31,764 nt of DNA from a virus. This document shows positions 5,628 through 15,800 of this stretch, one piece after another (positions within the stretch are counted from its first letter, which is position 1; every line of letters begins with the position of its first letter). The stretch spans positions 261 through 32,024 of IMG/VR virus record IMGVR_UViG_3300030116_002611; one strand, written 5' to 3'. The position numbers were made by a program, and so were the translations under genes. The notes under the pieces were generated by a model. That model searched no databases. It was not told the origin of the DNA and saw only the letters and a list, made by a program, of their open reading frames with translations.

Positions 5628-6113
5628 TTAATTGTTAAATAATTTGTTAAATACTATTTGTTTTGTCGTCATAGGACGATTTTGAGAATATAAATTCATT
5701 GGTTTAGAATTTACCTCTGCTTCAGGAGAATGAGAAATTGCTTCAGTCTCTTCAGAAAGTTCAACTTTGTCTGAGCTTAACTCTTCAGGAGCATCAGCAG
5801 CTTCTTCTTTGCCAATACCATCCATCATTTGCTCATACATAGCTTTAAACTCAGCTACTACTTTATTTAATTCTTCTTTTGTAGCATAAAGTTCTTCTGG
5901 AGCTTCTTCAATTACTTTTTCTTCGCCTTCTTCTTCAGCTAATTCTTCTGCAGAATTCTCTTCTACTGTTTCTTCTTGAGCAAGTTCAACCTGCTCTTCA
6001 GTAACCTCCTCCTTAACTTCAGCAGAAAGCTCCTCTAATGCAGGAGTCTCTTCTTCAGTGTCAGCAGAAAGTAATACTTCTTTGAATTTTTTAATAATTT
6101 CTGTTGCTTTCAT
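5628..6113 (-). CDS. acidic capsid scaffolding protein
   Basis: A 161-residue, extremely Glu-rich protein with a predicted central coiled coil (about residues 70-100; KEELNKVVAEFKAMYEQMMD). Its C-terminal segment, SKPMNLYSQNRPMTTKQIVF plus KLFNN, resembles the conserved C-terminal tail of small proteins preceding capsid genes in Bacteroidota phages, where scaffolds contact the shell. Position between protease and capsid genes supports a scaffold role. The Glu-rich composition leaves little sequence signal for a firm family call. A CGTTATCA copy lies 13-24 bases upstream of the ATG rather than next to it. Confidence 0.6.
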   Translation of the reverse strand: MKATEIIKKFKEVLLSADTEEETPALEELSAEVKEEVTEEQVELAQEETVEENSAEELAEEEGEEKVIEEAPEELYATKEELNKVVAEFKAMYEQMMDGIGKEEAADAPEELSSDKVELSEETEAISHSPEAEVNSKPMNLYSQNRPMTTKQIVFNKLFNN

Positions 6114-6314: not shown

Positions 6315-6430
6315 CTTCCTTGTCCTTTGTATTTTTTCTTATATCCTCTTTTACCCTTGCTAGCATTCTTGCTATGTGGATGAGATTTTCTCTTACTCTT
6401 TCTGTATGTGCTTGCTGCTTTCTTTCTCAT
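6311..6430 (-). CDS. 39-residue very basic microprotein
   Basis: Encodes a peptide beginning MRKKAASTYRKSKRKS with further Lys/Arg/His and Gly, ending KYKGQGR; about half the residues are basic. Its ATG overlaps the protease stop (TAATG) and its TGA overlaps the next ATG (ATGA), forming a coupled chain protease - basic peptide - Cys peptide. A nucleic-acid-binding or packaged internal peptide is plausible from composition and its place in the head operon, but this is inference. Confidence 0.6.
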   Translation of the reverse strand: MRKKAASTYRKSKRKSHPHSKNASKGKRGYKKKYKGQGR

Positions 6431-7950
6431 TATTTAGATGATTTAGGGTGTTTTTTAGGTAACAAATCATAATCAGTTGTGTATTTAGCATTTTGTGGTC
6501 TACCATTTTTTATTAGATATAAAAAGGCATTCACTCTTGCAAACGCCCATTGAGATGGACTTTTTACGTTTGGACTATGTGAAGTATTAAAAGCTCCTAA
6601 GCCTCTTTGAAATACACTAGCTAACATACCTACAGTAACACCATAACCTAGCTTTTCTTTATATCTCTTGTTAAAGTCATTTGCCTTCTTTGTTAAAGTA
6701 GCTCTGTCTTTTGCAGAGACCTTAGCTCCTGTTTTACCTTTTGCACTACCACCTGCACTACCTTTGCCTTTTGGATTCTTGTTAGGTGTATCTGATTTTG
6801 GTGCTTTAGGAGACTTTCTTATACCACCTTTAGGTCCTACCTCTGCCATAGAGTGTTGTTCACATGGCATATACCATTTTTCATCTTCCATCTCGTGTAT
6901 ATGAAACCCTTTACATCCTATATCTTCTGCTCCTTTTTCTGCTTTTTCCTGTGTATTATATGCTAATCTTCCATTGATAATTGCATACTCATCAGAAACT
7001 CTAACAAAGTCTTTTGCTAATTTTTTCTTATCTATTTGTTTTAGTTTGCTAATAGCCCAATTCACACCAGAACTACCACCCCAAGCATCCCACATTAGAC
7101 CACCACATCCTTCTGAGTAAGGCACATCTTTGTTTTGTTGGTGTCTCTTAAAGCTCGCCATCCTAGCTATTGTTGAACGAGAGATACTAGCACCTGATGC
7201 TAATTGTGAAGCTCTTCTCCATCCTACAGGTGTTCCACAACTACTACCGTTTTCTTCTTTATACTTCAAAGCTCTTCTTGCATTGTTTCTTGCTGACTGT
7301 GGATAGTCAGAATAACTTTCTAGCTCTACATCTTGTATTTCTAAAATGATGTCTTCAAGTTCAAACATCTTAGCTAAAGCACTTAATTCATCTGTATCTA
7401 TTTCTTCCTTTACGCTTTCTCTTGGTCTTTCATCAAGTTTGTCTGTAAAAAAACCCTCTATGCTAAAGCCTTTTACTTTTCCTTCTTTTACAAACTCTTC
7501 CCATATCTGGTCGTTGTTTACCTTAACAGATACCATCCAAGTTCCTACAGGTAAATTAAGATTATACTTAGCAGACTTGTCTTTCTTTTCATCTTCTATA
7601 ATCCAACTTTCTACTACACTTAATCCTTCTAACTCTACATCATGCTCTAATGTCGAATTGTTTTGCTTGCCTTTAGACAGAAATAATTCAGATGCTTTTC
7701 TAACAGTGTCTTTAGAGAAGTATATAAAATATTCTTTATCGCCACTCTTTCTAAATATCTTTTTGTCAGGAACTAATGCAGCTCCCATCAATATTCTTTT
7801 TTCAGAGTCTACTTCTGCTAATTGTATTTGCTGTTCTTTAAGAGCAATAAAATCTTCTTCTATTGCTGGATATTCTACTATAGATATTGCTTCTATACCA
7901 GAAAAATCATTTTCTTCGTCTATAAATAGTTCTATAATATCTTGCTCCAT
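6430..7950 (-). CDS. prohead protease (XkdF-like) fused to conserved C-terminal domains
   Basis: A 506-residue multidomain protein. Residues about 1-175 match XkdF/S78-like prohead proteases: LMGAALVPDKKIFRK, then H103 in TLEHDVELEGLSVVESWIIE and S163 in KGFSIEGFF, the expected His and Ser of the catalytic site. Residues about 215-310 form a Trp/Cys/Gly-rich domain (RNNARRALKYKEENGSSCGT, then CGGLMWDAWGG). The C-terminal 110 residues are basic, with a Gly/Lys/Ser linker, and end TTDYDLLPKKHPKSSK. It lies just before the scaffold and capsid genes, whose products it probably cleaves during head maturation. The added domains recur in this phage group and their role is unknown to me. The regulatory 12-mer abuts its ATG. 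Confidence 0.75.
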   Translation of the reverse strand: MEQDIIELFIDEENDFSGIEAISIVEYPAIEEDFIALKEQQIQLAEVDSEKRILMGAALVPDKKIFRKSGDKEYFIYFSKDTVRKASELFLSKGKQNNSTLEHDVELEGLSVVESWIIEDEKKDKSAKYNLNLPVGTWMVSVKVNNDQIWEEFVKEGKVKGFSIEGFFTDKLDERPRESVKEEIDTDELSALAKMFELEDIILEIQDVELESYSDYPQSARNNARRALKYKEENGSSCGTPVGWRRASQLASGASISRSTIARMASFKRHQQNKDVPYSEGCGGLMWDAWGGSSGVNWAISKLKQIDKKKLAKDFVRVSDEYAIINGRLAYNTQEKAEKGAEDIGCKGFHIHEMEDEKWYMPCEQHSMAEVGPKGGIRKSPKAPKSDTPNKNPKGKGSAGGSAKGKTGAKVSAKDRATLTKKANDFNKRYKEKLGYGVTVGMLASVFQRGLGAFNTSHSPNVKSPSQWAFARVNAFLYLIKNGRPQNAKYTTDYDLLPKKHPKSSK

Positions 7951-7985: not shown

Positions 7986-9776
7986 TTAATCACCAACAGA
8001 CGCTCCTGCTTCTATTTGTAAGTCTAACTCTTGTTGTGATGTCATCTCGCTACTTACTACATACGCTTGTACTGGTTGTTGGAATTGACCTCCTACAGCT
8101 TCAGCTAACTGATTTGTTCCTGTGCTTCCTACTAAATTAAAGTCAAAGGCTCTACCTCCACCACCTTCACCTCCTCCAGCTCTGCCACCACCACCTGATA
8201 ATGACCTAGATGTTAAAGTAGTTGCTAATATATTAGCAATTGCAATAGCTGCTCCTACATTATTTTTAGTAACTCTTTTGGCTGCTCCTGCCTGTGCCTG
8301 TGCTGCTTTACCTTCATAAAATGCTAATGCTCCTGGATTCAAAGCATTTACTGCTGCTGCAGCTTTATAAAATCCAACTTCAGTTGCGCTAGCAGATAAT
8401 ATTTGTGCATTTGCTTTTTGTGTCTCTATAACAACTCCTGCTACTGCAGCTCCTTTTTCTATAATTAATCCTACTTTTGCTAACTCTTCACTTTCTTTAC
8501 CTAAAGTAGAAAACACTTGACCAATGCCAGAAACAAAATCTACATACTCTAGTTGTGCTTGCATCCTTAAATCTAACAACATCATCTCATGTTCAAACTC
8601 TCTGTCTTGCAAATCCATCTTCATGTTAGCTAATTGTTGTTCTGCTTCCAATCTTTCTATTGTGCCTTCTTTTAACGCACTGGTCATAAGTTTTTGGTGT
8701 CCTATCTCTTCTTGTAGTAATTGTATGTTGCCTTCTGATGCTCTAATCGCAGCTTCTTCTCCAAGAGATGATATAGAGTCAAAAAATCTTCTTCTTACTT
8801 CTGCGTCTATCTCCATAGACCTTGTAAGCAAGTCTTCTCCTAAGCTTATTGGTTCTTGTGGACCTGTTTCTTTCCCTTCATTTCCTCCTTTAGAGCCACC
8901 AGTCTTAACAAAAGTGAAAAAGTTAGAAAGTTCATTCTCTCTTTTCAAAAGCTTTTGTATACTTACATTTAAACCATCTAACTGAAATGCTAAAGGATTT
9001 CTAGTAACCAAACCTCCAGACTTAATAAATTCACCACCACTTTCTTCTATTTCTCTTTGTAGTTCTATTGCTCTTTCTGTTTTCTTTTCAAGTTCATCTC
9101 TTGTTTTAATAAATTTCTCATATAATTTTACAAGTTTCATTACAGTAGCAGGGTCTTTTTTCTGTTCTTCTGAAAGCTTCTGAAATCCACCCCTAAAATC
9201 TTTGTATTTTTTATTTAATATCTCTACTGATTCACTTAATGTCAATACACCAGAATTTAATCCTTCTATTGCTCTTAAGTTTTCTCTTATGGGAAGTGTA
9301 AGAGCAGTAAGTTTTTCTAAAGAAGTTATTTGTCTTTCTATTTCATCTGTTGTTTCACTTGTTTTTTCTTTTGCTTTGTTTTGCTCCATACTAAACCTCT
9401 CTAGCAAAGCAATTACTCCTTGAAAAGCTAATATTAAACCAAGAGGACCCATCATAGCTGACCATATTTGTTTAAAACCTGCAGCAACTCCACCTGCTGC
9501 TCTAGTAGTAAATACTAAGTTTGAAACCAATTGAGAAAGGTTGTTAGCCATACCTCTAATACCATAGTTAGCATCAGATATAGTACGACCAAGTTCTAAT
9601 ACTGTTGCAGTTGCTCCTCCAGTAGCATTAGAAGTGCCTTTCATATTTGTCTGTACACTTTTAAGCTCTTGATTTAACTCTTTTGTACTTAGGGTAACCC
9701 CATCCATAGTTGCTTTAGCCTGATTTCCCTCTACAACAATTTTTATAACCTTTGTAACTTGTGAATTAGTTGCCAT
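7986..9776 (-). CDS. tail tape measure protein
   Basis: A 596-residue protein whose length sets tail length; at about 0.15 nm per residue it implies a tail near 90 nm (estimate). It has a helical N-terminal region, a hydrophobic segment (AAGFKQIWSAMMGPLGLILAF, about 98-120), long charged coiled-coil stretches in the middle (about 125-300 and 330-400), an Ala-rich hydrophobic segment near 430-520, and a Gly-rich stretch (GGGGRAGGGEGGGG) before the C-terminus. This mix of coiled coil and membrane-like segments is typical of tape measures. It is short for the class. Neighbours are tail-tip-like genes upstream, with head genes starting just downstream. Confidence 0.75.
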   Translation of the reverse strand: MATNSQVTKVIKIVVEGNQAKATMDGVTLSTKELNQELKSVQTNMKGTSNATGGATATVLELGRTISDANYGIRGMANNLSQLVSNLVFTTRAAGGVAAGFKQIWSAMMGPLGLILAFQGVIALLERFSMEQNKAKEKTSETTDEIERQITSLEKLTALTLPIRENLRAIEGLNSGVLTLSESVEILNKKYKDFRGGFQKLSEEQKKDPATVMKLVKLYEKFIKTRDELEKKTERAIELQREIEESGGEFIKSGGLVTRNPLAFQLDGLNVSIQKLLKRENELSNFFTFVKTGGSKGGNEGKETGPQEPISLGEDLLTRSMEIDAEVRRRFFDSISSLGEEAAIRASEGNIQLLQEEIGHQKLMTSALKEGTIERLEAEQQLANMKMDLQDREFEHEMMLLDLRMQAQLEYVDFVSGIGQVFSTLGKESEELAKVGLIIEKGAAVAGVVIETQKANAQILSASATEVGFYKAAAAVNALNPGALAFYEGKAAQAQAGAAKRVTKNNVGAAIAIANILATTLTSRSLSGGGGRAGGGEGGGGRAFDFNLVGSTGTNQLAEAVGGQFQQPVQAYVVSSEMTSQQELDLQIEAGASVGD

Positions 9777-12243: not shown

Positions 12244-13400
12244 TATCTTACGCTATTTATTTTATCAAATGAAAACTCTACCTCTATAGTATAATTTATT
12301 AGTTTGTCGTTTAGTTTTGTTTGGAAAGAGAAGTCGCTAGACTTTACTGTAACAGGTAATGTTTTGTTGTTATATTCTATCCATACTCTTTCACTCAATG
12401 TAAACTGTCTAAACACCTCGTTATATTCTTCTGGATAAAAACCAGTGTTTAATGATAAACTTTCTTTTGCGTTTATATTAAATGTTTTATCCTGATGCTC
12501 AAAAGTGTTATATGTTCCTGTGATGGATAATAAAGTAGATGACCTAAATGTTTCGTCTTCTTTCTTTATAGATAAATCACTTCTCTTAAACATCCATAGG
12601 TCTTGTAAAGCACCATACTTATTCACAAACACTAGCTTATAAGGAGTAAACTTACATTCTTCTATATTTCTTATTTCTAGCTTTGTTACACCTTCTGTTG
12701 CATCTACATATACCGTATCTACGCCATACACACCAAACTGTGCTAAGAAGTTGTTTAGGCATTGACTGTTCTCAAAAGTACCTCCGTCTTCTAACACTCT
12801 ATCTTCAAATCCATCTGCTCCTACCTCTGACTCATTTGTTATGTATTTTACCCAGTCAATAGAATTTGTTTGGTCTGCTACATTTTGTGTATATATTTCT
12901 TGTCCTTTAGAGAAGAAAGATACAGATGTAGTATTGTTAGCATCTACAGGAAAACGCAAAGGAGCGTCATCTGGTTTTATAATAATCTTGTTGCTAATCA
13001 AGAGTCCTTGTACTAACTGTGGATTTGCGCCTTCTTCAAAATAACCATATCCATCAAATGCTCTTAATCCTAAAACTGCAGTTTCTACAGTGCTAGTATT
13101 ATTTGTTAATGTCTTTGTTACTTGATAATCTACATTTATAGTAGTGTAGATACTAGGAATAGGAGTATAGTCTCCGTCAAATCCTGTTGCTAGGTAGTCT
13201 TTTATTAAAGCACTTATCTCAAAGTTTACATAAAATCCAAACTGACCTGCTGCTGTAGAGGTTAGTGTGTAGGTTGGAGACAATGTATGCCCAGATGTAT
13301 GTGCTGTGCCTGTGTATATTTCTATGTCTAATTTTGCAGATGCTAAGTTTGCATCAAATATGTTTACAAAATATGGGCTTCTTACGTTTATTTTAGCCAT
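12243..13400 (-). CDS. tail structural protein, unidentified
   Basis: A 385-residue beta-rich protein with MAKINVRSPYFVNIFDANL at the N-terminus. A central FVNKYGALQDLWMFKRSD segment recurs in tail proteins of Bacteroidota phages and prophages. The C-terminus is TIEVEFSFDKINSVR. It is coupled (TAATG) to the following 777-residue tail gene and lies six bases after the preceding gp10-like gene. A tail-tip or distal-tail adapter role is an inference from context. Confidence 0.55.
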   Translation of the reverse strand: MAKINVRSPYFVNIFDANLASAKLDIEIYTGTAHTSGHTLSPTYTLTSTAAGQFGFYVNFEISALIKDYLATGFDGDYTPIPSIYTTINVDYQVTKTLTNNTSTVETAVLGLRAFDGYGYFEEGANPQLVQGLLISNKIIIKPDDAPLRFPVDANNTTSVSFFSKGQEIYTQNVADQTNSIDWVKYITNESEVGADGFEDRVLEDGGTFENSQCLNNFLAQFGVYGVDTVYVDATEGVTKLEIRNIEECKFTPYKLVFVNKYGALQDLWMFKRSDLSIKKEDETFRSSTLLSITGTYNTFEHQDKTFNINAKESLSLNTGFYPEEYNEVFRQFTLSERVWIEYNNKTLPVTVKSSDFSFQTKLNDKLINYTIEVEFSFDKINSVR

Positions 13401-13406
13401 TTGTTT

Positions 13407-13880
13407 TTATTTTATTTTATTTAATTCTTCATCTAAACCACTTACCCAAGCCGATAGTAAGTCGTCATCAAATTCGTTTAATACGTTGTTTATTGCTCTG
13501 TCTATAAAGTTACTACCAGAATAACCAAATCGCTTTATAGTACCTTGTTCATAAATACTTTCAGCAATAGCTTTAGCTGATTCTCTAATACTTGATTTTT
13601 GTGGGCTAATGCCTTTGAATCCCATCCAAGCTTCAATATCATCAGCAAATCCTTTAGGCACTTTAGCTCCTTGCCTTCTACCCTCATCTACAGTCATTGC
13701 ATAGTCAGCCATAAATATTTCTATGTTAGTGCCAACTATTTCATAATACATAGAATCATGCAGTCTGTTAGAAGCCCTTAGAGTTTTACCATTTTGTGGC
13801 TTACTTAAATTAGCTCTTAGCCTTTCTATGGCTTCAGAACCTAATCTTTCTAACACTCTTCTAACTAAATCCTCTTTCAT
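13407..13880 (-). CDS. HK97 gp10-like head-tail connector or tail-completion protein
   Basis: A 157-residue mixed-charge helical protein, start MKEDLVRRVLERLG. It has the pattern of gp10-like connectors: a central YAMTVDEGRRQGAKVPKGF segment, then a long helical C-terminus (NFIDRAINNVLNEFDDDL). The size is right for the family. The ATG at 13880 overlaps the preceding stop (TAATG), which I prefer to an upstream TTG at 13886. It sits with the adjacent 152-residue gene as a pair, as connector and tail terminator genes usually do. Confidence 0.45.
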   Translation of the reverse strand: MKEDLVRRVLERLGSEAIERLRANLSKPQNGKTLRASNRLHDSMYYEIVGTNIEIFMADYAMTVDEGRRQGAKVPKGFADDIEAWMGFKGISPQKSSIRESAKAIAESIYEQGTIKRFGYSGSNFIDRAINNVLNEFDDDLLSAWVSGLDEELNKIK

Positions 13881-14338
13881 TAGCAAGCACTTATGTTGTT
13901 AGACATCTTTATATTTATTTCTGCTTCCCATCCAGCTAGCTCGTTCTCAAATCTTTCCTTGAAAGGCTGGCAGCTTATGTCTTCATCAACCTGTAGTCCT
14001 GCTACTCTTAAACTACCTCTCTTTAATTTAGAGTAAATTAGATTGACTACTTGTAATTGTGTGTTTAGTATGTCTTGTAAGTTGTCATTACCATAAAAAA
14101 CATCCGTTCCGTAGTCTTCTTTATTGTAGTCTAGTATATCAGAGCATAATACTTGTAATGTAATTGTCATAAACCTTTCGTTTATAACTACGTTAGATAT
14201 ATTTAGGTGTGTTATTGGGAATATATCTGTTTTGTCTAAGTTGATTTGTGTAATATCACCAAAACTAACTGTGTTTACATGATTGTTAGCTCGTAACTCA
14301 TCCTTAAGCTTATCTAATAAGTCGTATACTTGTGTCAT
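13880..14338 (-). CDS. tail terminator or completion-like protein
   Basis: A 152-residue protein (MTQVYDLLDKLKDELRANNH) with alternating helix and strand character and FPITHLNISNVVINERFMTI in the middle. Length and position next to the gp10-like gene fit tail terminator proteins that cap the tail tube. There are no diagnostic residues, so this is a context call. It follows the frameshift extension of the tail chaperone by two bases. Confidence 0.4.
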   Translation of the reverse strand: MTQVYDLLDKLKDELRANNHVNTVSFGDITQINLDKTDIFPITHLNISNVVINERFMTITLQVLCSDILDYNKEDYGTDVFYGNDNLQDILNTQLQVVNLIYSKLKRGSLRVAGLQVDEDISCQPFKERFENELAGWEAEINIKMSNNISAC

Positions 14339-14340
14339 AT

Positions 14341-15134
14341 CTATTTTTTATATGCCTTTTTTATTAAAGCATTCTCTATTGTTGTTTTATCTTTTATATA
14401 CTCCAAATACATCATACAGGTATGTACTGGTAGTTTTGTAGCTTGGTCAATCTTTGCTGCATCTTCTTGAGCGATTGTAAATATTGACTGATACCAACCC
14501 CACTTTTTTCCAAAGTTTGCTTGAGCTGAGGTGGAAGTGCCTTCCGTTTCAATTGCTTCTGTAAATAATCCAGCGTATAGTTTGGTAATTTGTTCCCTAA
14601 ACGATAAAAAAAAACCATAGCTCCTATCGCTACATTTACTGGCATATCTAACATAACATCAGAATACTTGTGGCTGCCTTCATAATCCATAACCCTATAG
14701 AACTCATTCTTCTTAAAGATTACTGGTCTAAACAATACAGCCATTGCTTTATGCATCTTTTGCCAATCTGAGATATACCCATCTAAATCAATGAACTCTC
14801 CAAAGGTCATTTCATCTATTTTTGGTATAAAACCAAACTCAACAACCGTTTCTTCCCCATACTCATCTGTGGCTGACATACTAAATCTAGGTACAAGAGG
14901 TGTATTCTCCTCAAAACACTTATTTATTACATCAATAGCGAAATCAAAGTTGTTTAAGGGTATCTTAAACGTATCTTCTATTTCTAAACCACAGAATATC
15001 TGCAGCATCTTTGTCTTTATATATACCTCATCTTCCTTATCCCATTTATCTAGTATCTTTAGATACTGTTGATACTGTCTAAGGGTTATTCCTGCTAATG
15101 ATTGAGGTATAGACAGTTTATATTCCTTTACCAT
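14341..15134 (-). CDS. tail assembly chaperone, -1 frameshift product (GT form)
   Basis: A -1 slip on the A-run at 14504-14509 changes the reading frame after residue 210 and adds 54 residues before the TAG at 14341, giving about 264 residues. The added part is clearly protein-like: KWGWYQSIFTIAQEDAAKID, then QATKLPVHTCMMYLEYIKDK, then a Lys/Ala-rich end. It resembles the GWY...LA..D..KI..VT.L.V...L conserved C-terminal domain of tail chaperone proteins in Bacteroidota phages (recalled pattern). Siphoviruses typically make G and GT forms by such a shift, the T part binding the tape measure. A plain start at 14415 or 14412 would give only 24 or 23 residues of the extension. Confidence 0.7.
14412..15134 (-). 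CDS. tail assembly chaperone, unshifted product (G form)
   Basis: A 240-residue protein starting MVKEYKLSIPQSLAGITLRQ, the typical N-terminus of this family in Bacteroidota phages. It has a helical middle (CFEENTPLVPRFSMSATDEY; IPKIDEMTFGEFIDLDGYIS; KAMAVLFRPVI). The G form coats the tape measure during tail assembly and is absent from virions. Its last 30 residues after the slip site (SGVGISQYLQSLKKMQQRLT and on to YIPV) are read only without frameshifting. It is the first gene after the 600-base gene-free region, with a promoter-like element and the CGTTATCATAGT motif upstream. Confidence 0.7.
   Translation of the reverse strand: MVKEYKLSIPQSLAGITLRQYQQYLKILDKWDKEDEVYIKTKMLQIFCGLEIEDTFKIPLNNFDFAIDVINKCFEENTPLVPRFSMSATDEYGEETVVEFGFIPKIDEMTFGEFIDLDGYISDWQKMHKAMAVLFRPVIFKKNEFYRVMDYEGSHKYSDVMLDMPVNVAIGAMVFFYRLGNKLPNYTLDYLQKQLKRKALPPQLKQTLEKSGVGISQYLQSLKKMQQRLTKLQNYQYIPV
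14503..14511 (-). promoter_or_regulatory. slippery sequence for -1 programmed frameshift
   Basis: Minus-strand TTG GAA AAA AGT GGG GTT: the six-A run (14509-14504) lets tRNA-Lys on AAA re-pair one base back, after which AAG TGG GGT is read. The canonical X-XXY-YYZ heptamer is not in the zero frame, so single-tRNA (P-site) slippage is more likely than tandem slippage. The GTGGGGTTGG just downstream could take part in a pausing structure, but no clear hairpin was identified. Confidence 0.6.
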
Positions 15135-15146
15135 ACTATGATAACG
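15135..15146 (-). promoter_or_regulatory. CGTTATCATAGT motif abutting the start codon
   Basis: This copy is identical over all 12 bases to the one at 3947-3958 and is followed directly by the tail chaperone ATG at 15134. ACAAAAAACA lies 25 bases upstream of CGTT. Confidence 0.5.
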
Positions 15147-15236
15147 AAAATTAATGCTTTCTGTTTTTTGTTAATAAGTTGTTTACAGAAGTATAAAACA
15201 AAAATGAAAAATATCGTTATCTTTATATAGTAGTTG

Positions 15237-15264
15237 CAAATCTACATAAGTTGCCAAACTTCAA
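15237..15264 (-). promoter_or_regulatory. candidate Bacteroidota promoter for the tail operon
   Basis: Minus-strand TAGATTTG (15244-15237) matches the -7 consensus TAnnTTTG exactly, with TTG 17 bases upstream. It would give a leader of roughly 95 bases ending in the tail chaperone gene. The spacing is slightly short of the usual 19-20. Confidence 0.45.
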
Positions 15265-15312
15265 TACCCTAATAAATACGGACGATTGTTGGAACGTGTA
15301 ACCTAAATCTCC

Positions 15313-15375
15313 TTGTGAATGGCAATGCTAAATCCTTTGTTGTTTTCGTAGTCGCCCTAGCATTATTCCACACAA
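15313..15375. ncRNA. three-helix stem-loop, possible structured RNA
   Basis: Three successive complementary segments face each other: TTGTG (15313-15317) with CACAA (15371-15375), TGG (15320-15322) with CCA (15368-15370), and AATGCTA (15324-15330) with TAGCATT (15358-15364). They are separated by small internal loops and close a 27-base terminal loop. A single co-linear stem of 15 pairs is unlikely to arise by chance in a gene-free stretch. The transcribed strand is unknown. Confidence 0.4.
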
Positions 15376-15431
15376 CGAGTAAACTGCTAACCAAATATCT
15401 AGCAAATATTATTTAAAATAACATTTATTAT

Positions 15432-15496
15432 AGGTGGGCGAATAATACATTCTAAACTTGTTTTGGATGAATTCATCAGAATGGACAACTCCACCT
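15432..15496. repeat. nested inverted repeats around a 12-base palindrome
   Basis: AGGTGG (15432-15437) pairs with CCACCT (15491-15496). Inside it ATTCT (15449-15453) pairs with AGAAT (15478-15482), and within that lies the perfect palindrome GATGAATTCATC (15466-15477). Palindrome plus nested arms could be a protein-binding site or a folded RNA. Confidence 0.4.
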
Positions 15497-15731
15497 GCCA
15501 ATAATTCATTTTACGTCAAATTATCTAAATTAGTTAATTATATTATATTTAAATGCTATTTAAAGCTATTTAGAGACGATTTAAGACACTATCTATAATA
15601 ATATGTATATAAGTATTGATGAGGTTGTTATCTATGCTTAAATTGATTGTTTTTTGTTTGTTATTTACTGGACCTTTACAGGCTTTGTAAATCAAGCAAT
15701 TAAAAAAAAGGTGTATATATATAGATGACAT

Positions 15732-15765
15732 AAAAAAACCCCTAAAACATAGGTTTTAAGGGTTT
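15732..15765 (-). terminator. Rho-independent terminator ending the accessory operon
   Basis: A 13-position stem with one mismatch (AAACCC-C-TAAAAC with GTTTTA-A-GGGTTT) and a four-base ATAG loop, followed on the minus strand by seven T. It lies 36 bases after the 62-residue gene, the last of the small-gene operon. Confidence 0.85.
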
Positions 15766-15800
15766 CAAACTAACTAAAAATTAAAACTAATCAAACATAA

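Follow-up and report, generated by a model that had tools for sequence, protein, structure and literature searches.

Organization of the locus

The window, i.e., the whole stretch of 31,764 nucleotides that was analysed (positions 261 to 32,024 of IMG/VR virus record IMGVR_UViG_3300030116_002611), carries on its minus strand a gene whose product matches the profile of phrog_32199, a family of unknown function, over residues 6-198 (Table 1). The gene contains the sole homopolymer of nine or more nucleotides in the window, a run of nine T's (T9) in the context G GTT TTT TTT TAT. From its previous stop at 14661, the -1 frame runs on for about 105 codons without interruption, and its translation is protein-like from the T9 run onward: FFLSFREQITKLYAGLFTEAIETEGTSTSAQANFGKKWGWYQSIFTIAQEDAAKIDQATKLPVHTCMMYLEYIKDKTTIENALIKKAYKK. 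The conserved -1 protein starts at this run with FFLSFREQITKLYAGLF.

Ordinary decoding would yield a short form of 240 aa and 28.3 kDa, while a -1 slip inside the T9 run would yield a long form of 264 aa and 30.7 kDa, in which the first 176 residues are common to the short form and are followed by a mostly helical domain of 88 residues (LSFREQ...KWGWYQS...), with MVFF preceding LSFREQ at the predicted fusion junction. Predicted structural models are usable for the short form (pLDDT 78.8) and poor for the -1 extension (66). Read in this way, the gene is a putative two-product tail gene of a flavobacterial-type siphophage; from the sequence we infer that both products are made, and likewise their ratio.

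Table 1. Features of the frameshifted gene and of its surroundings (coordinates refer to the window).
Feature	Coordinates	Strand	Remarks
Zero-frame gene, short form ("G"-like)	15134..14412	minus	240 aa; ATG 15134, stop 14414-14412; phrog_32199 E=2e-19
T9 slip run	14614-14606	minus	zero frame GTT TTT TTT TAT (GTT = 14615-14613); T9/T10 in all relatives
Zero-frame slippery heptamer U_UUU_UUU (DNA T_TTT_TTT), canonical	14613-14607	minus	wobble conservation
-1 frame extension	14341..14607	minus	first codon TTA 14607-14605; stop TAG 14343-14341
Doubly read segment (zero-frame tail and -1 extension)	14412..14607	minus	~66 codons
Next tail gene	13880..14338	minus	152 aa; 2-nt gap after -1 stop
Tape measure protein candidate	7986..9776	minus, downstream	phrog_167 tail length tape measure E=9e-6
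A6 run, rejected slip site	14504-14509	minus	poorly conserved; -1 frame already conserved upstream

The original prediction had placed the slip at the A6 run, where the -1 frame was said to open, and had noted the lack of a canonical zero-frame heptamer. The 240-aa frame, the A6 run, the TAG stop and the extension KWGWYQSIFTIAQEDAAKID are all present as it described them, and its fused length of 264 aa is correct, being the same whether the shift is placed at T9 or at A6. However, the -1 frame is open and the encoded protein conserved well before A6, a canonical T_TTT_TTT heptamer does lie in the zero frame, and the true site is found about 100 nt upstream of the proposed one: a run of six or more A's occurs in only 47 of 161 relatives (9 of 49 diverse representatives), compared to T9 or T10 in 161 of 161.

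In most relatives the stop of the -1 frame overlaps the start of the next gene by 4 nt (ATGA type), the window having a 2-nt gap instead, and this overlap suggests translational coupling of the next gene to the extension. Directly upstream of the gene, about 665 bases of the minus strand (15135-15800) contain no open reading frame of 60 aa, and Rfam has no match anywhere in the window, this segment included. Elsewhere in the window (6430-7950), the head maturation protease is fused to further domains (phrog_2859-type region, residues 216-309).

Conservation of the T run

A first search of viral contigs returned 79 homologs (37-93% identical). In all 79, the run counts exactly nine T's and lies in the same frame, and both reading frames are open. 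With the extension of the isolated Nonlabens phage P12024L as query, 80 further viral loci were found, and a profile of the extension added one locus in a bacterial genome; each of these has 9 or 10 T's, and an unbroken single reading frame is absent among the loci from both searches. The resulting non-redundant set of 161 sequences has T9 in 157 cases and T10 in four. Two further searches, together with phage P12024S, provided 161 more loci (a set that includes some contigs already met in the earlier searches), again with T9 or T10 in every case. Taken together, the run is present in the matching frame in 322 of 322 homologous sequences, among them the isolated Nonlabens phages P12024L and P12024S.

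At the three wobble positions of the heptamer, T is found in 49/49, 49/49 and 47/49 diverse representatives, whereas Phe codons upstream in the same genes are TTC in 24% of cases. A slippery heptamer in the zero frame that is conserved in relatives, as known from chaperones of the G/GT type, is thus present. In some clades the T run is displaced by up to 3 nt against the reading frame, its length still being 9-10 T. The site was also looked for in exact T8 and T7 versions by targeted scans, which returned 2 and 7 stretches, respectively, compared to at least 120 for T9, and no sound homolog was among the T8 and T7 stretches. One homolog with a T7 run (L341, around position 5888) was set aside, since its gene is broken in several frames and the contig or its assembly is probably rich in errors. 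No published description of this T9 site was found in the literature searched.

Selection on the two reading frames

Selection was assessed by counting substitutions according to how they act in each frame, the adjacent stretch that is read in one frame serving as control. In the part that precedes T9, the ratio is 0.10-0.24 for the zero frame, which is constrained, and 1.45-4.1 for the -1 frame, which is neutral. Within the overlap, the -1 frame has a ratio of 0.24-0.80, and in five of the six groups bootstrapping places it below 1 (P<=0.004). For the zero-frame tail, the ratio is 0.37-0.85, i.e., a weak and mostly not significant constraint. Selection therefore switches frame at T9, which identifies the run as the point of coding changeover.

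The two overlapping reading frames joined by a -1 shift are also more open than expected: of codon shuffles that preserve the zero-frame protein of the window gene, only 0.2% leave the -1 frame open over the entire overlap, and of those that preserve the -1 protein, 1.3% leave the zero-frame tail open. Shuffles over 12 lineages of the main group gave P values of <0.001 to 0.04 for the zero-frame tail and of about 0.005 or less for the -1 frame. The -1 frame is thus clearly selected, and the zero-frame tail, on which the amino-acid constraint is weak, is probably maintained as an open frame rather than for its sequence. In P12024L, where this tail comprises only 28 codons, the test of openness does not reach significance (P=0.13). 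In each of the 161 relatives, the third (+1) frame runs into a stop no more than 9 codons from the T run (14597-14599 in the window).

Uninterrupted distant homologs

When the structure of the short form was compared to viral models, Flavobacterium phage 6H was found, and this phage in turn pointed to the Duneviridae, Leef_1 and a Microcystis phage, all of which encode the counterpart of the gene as a single reading frame of 259-301 aa. These proteins belong to the Duneviridae family phrog_25418 (Flavobacterium phages FPSV-F7 and 23T, laban6-1 and Cellulophaga phage Ingeline_1, with Leef_1 and the Microcystis phage as distant members), which is homologous over the entire shifted product but differs in encoding the long form without a frameshift. 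In single pairwise profile comparisons with hhalign, the profile of the predicted fusion proteins aligns end-to-end with the Duneviridae-type proteins over 247 columns (99.3%, E=3.6e-19), and the extension alone matches their C-terminal part (72%, E=4e-6), while the zero-frame tail alone has no match to them (0.1%). A profile comparison gave no support for synteny of the next gene with Duneviridae (0.8%), and no viral contigs were found with the Microcystis phage protein as query. Phage 6H itself was considered as a second case of frameshifting and rejected, as its split gene (KC959568, 10352-10927) differs by 2 nt from that of near-identical phages with one reading frame; phages 23T, 2A and FPSV-F7 have one frame of 293 aa, and the split in 6H is either a sequencing error or a recent mutation.

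All single-frame relatives are distant, and every phrog_32199-type member examined needs the shift. As the distant relatives encode the long form only, the short form is dispensable for some members of the wider family.

Two annotated families as one gene

Among the relatives, the extension corresponds to phrog_38404, another family of unknown function, the profile of which matches it in 21 of 45 (best E-value 6e-44); the extension of the window gene itself has no match. Going by these profile matches, phrog_32199 and phrog_38404 are the two halves of one, presumably frameshifted, gene. The closest isolated counterparts are direct homologs in the Nonlabens phages P12024L and P12024S. They share the T9 run and the -1 extension with the window but differ from it in the short zero-frame tail of only 28 codons and in that the halves are annotated as two separate hypothetical proteins (CDS 40 and 41 in P12024L; 38 and 39 in P12024S). 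The annotated small genes, P12024L_41 (12525-12692) and P12024S_39 (1125-1292), are an internal part of the -1 extension.

Taken at face value, this annotation makes the -1 region an independent gene that has a start codon of its own, and an ATG does lie inside the P12024L extension, where a 55-aa gene is annotated. However, the -1 frame has no ATG at or before T9 in any of 161 relatives, and in 149 of 161 the extension is free of ATG, GTG and TTG until codon 30. Conservation reaches back as far as the T9 run, ahead of any start codon, and the extension continues a single protein in the distant relatives; an independent gene is accordingly a most improbable reading. Similarly improbable is an origin of the break in an indel, a sequencing error or a decayed gene. 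Homopolymers are error-prone, and homologs with a single reading frame are known from Duneviridae, Leef_1 and a Microcystis phage, a kind of relative which, according to the original prediction, would point to an indel in the window. Yet such relatives occur in distant families only, the same T9/T10 break recurs in 322 sequences that come from many separate studies, and two isolated phages have it as well; both frames are open, and purifying selection acts on the -1 frame. As all 322 phrog_32199-type sequences retain the slip run, an indel is practically excluded. The two signs that the original prediction had named in favour of a shift were both found: an uninterrupted homolog across both parts (hhalign 99.3%, 247 columns) and a conserved slip site in relatives, the latter at T9 (322/322) instead of A6. 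Conservation, the selection tests and the distant homologs with one reading frame thus give strong support to the programmed -1 transition that it proposed as the source of a short and a long form, and the frame transition at T9 is, judging from these comparisons, almost certainly real and used.

Slippage by ribosome or RNA polymerase

The site at which the frame changes leaves two ways of changing it. No conserved RNA structure was detected downstream (mean z 0.02, 49 representatives), and an upstream Shine-Dalgarno-like stimulator of the AGGAG type is present in only 24 of 161 relatives. As no stimulators are conserved, both ribosomal slippage and slippage of the RNA polymerase come into consideration. 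In the latter case, the polymerase would slip on T9, giving mRNA with U10 or U8 in place of U9, and the same two products would arise by ordinary translation. Several observations are in line with this possibility: the run has 9 or 10 T's in 322 of 322 sequences and never 7 or 8, the T8 and T7 scans being without a sound homolog; a homopolymer of this length falls into the range of T runs >8 reported for transcriptional slippage (PMC3711429); displacements of the run against the frame, of up to 3 nt in some clades, leave its length at 9-10 T; and ribosomal stimulators are not visible. Moreover, U8 transcripts would be cheap, because the +1 frame stops within 9 codons in 161 of 161 relatives. 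A similar run length without stimulators is known from transcriptional slippage of the mxiE type in Shigella at T runs >8 (cited in PMC3711429), although mxiE is a bacterial gene and not a phage tail gene, and slippage in the window gene is predicted from sequence.

On the other hand, any run of nine T's contains an in-frame ribosomal heptamer, and the flanking T's can be explained by coding constraints, with a hydrophobic codon before and Tyr or Leu after. As a ribosomal site in E. coli, U_UUU_UUU is surpassed by A_AAA_AAG, but the slips of tail chaperones studied so far are ribosomal, and certain tailed phages shift without stimulators (PMC5009743). Because the constraints on flanking codons could also account for a floor of nine T's, a slip of the ribosome on U_UUU_UUU is mildly favoured, and transcriptional slippage is regarded as a serious but somewhat less probable candidate.

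A putative role as tail assembly chaperone

Gene architecture and the position upstream of the tape measure gene are the reasons to assign the gene a chaperone role. In the window, the gene lies on the same strand as the tape measure candidate (phrog_167, E=9e-6) and upstream of it, with four genes between; in Cellulophaga phage Ingeline_1, the homolog lies three genes upstream of the annotated tape measure gene, with two genes between. The two forms would act like gpG and gpGT of phage lambda, the long form adding a second binding domain and acting on the tape measure protein before the tail tube polymerises. The slip site of lambda is GGGAAAG. Lambda gpG/gpGT and the equivalents of other long-tailed phages resemble the present pair in the common N-terminus, a -1 slip at a low-complexity site, the position upstream of the tape measure gene and the lack of an obvious stimulator (PMC5009743). 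In contrast, the window pair has no clear sequence or fold homology to them, uses a T9 run, has about 66 doubly read codons and is not adjacent to the tape measure gene.

Direct matches to known chaperones are marginal. The N-terminal region resembles Phage_TAC_7 (PF10109), the P2 gpE type, in a weak profile match of 3 of 44 relatives that stays below the cut-off (best E=0.022, 15.2 bits vs. a 25-bit cut-off), the window protein itself being without a match, and a few relatives weakly match the phrog_166 tail protein (E=0.005); as the best among the 44 relatives scanned, these matches are leads rather than proof. For the short form, no fold match to solved chaperone structures was found in the PDB at E<=0.001, and a BFVD match named tail assembly chaperone reaches only E=0.2. 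Sequence searches of solved structures gave nothing relevant. The label of the original prediction thus stands as plausible by architecture and position, while its sequence support is marginal. This marginal homology, the placement in Ingeline_1, where the homolog lies two genes after the adaptor gene, and the several genes between the gene and the tape measure gene would also fit a genuine frameshift in a different protein, e.g., one of the neck, the connector or another structural part of the tail, with a short and a long version. This is considered unlikely, since a conserved -1 shift upstream of the tape measure gene is a hallmark of tail chaperones, and the weak profile matches seen include tail proteins. 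By analogy, the window gene probably encodes a tail assembly chaperone.

Implications

The finding is probably a known trick of tail-building chaperones in a previously unannotated family. It corrects the annotation of a gene in a widespread group of marine phages, where two PHROG families to which no function had been assigned can be merged into one frameshifted gene with a likely role. If the RNA polymerase is indeed what slips, polymerase slippage on T9 or T10 would set the two chaperone forms across many marine phages of the flavobacterial type, and the ratio of the two chaperones would depend on how long the run is rather than on a ribosomal signal. P12024L is an isolated phage in which ribosomal and transcriptional slippage can be told apart. 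Moreover, the family and its distant relatives provide a natural comparison between slip-dependent and single-frame versions of one protein.
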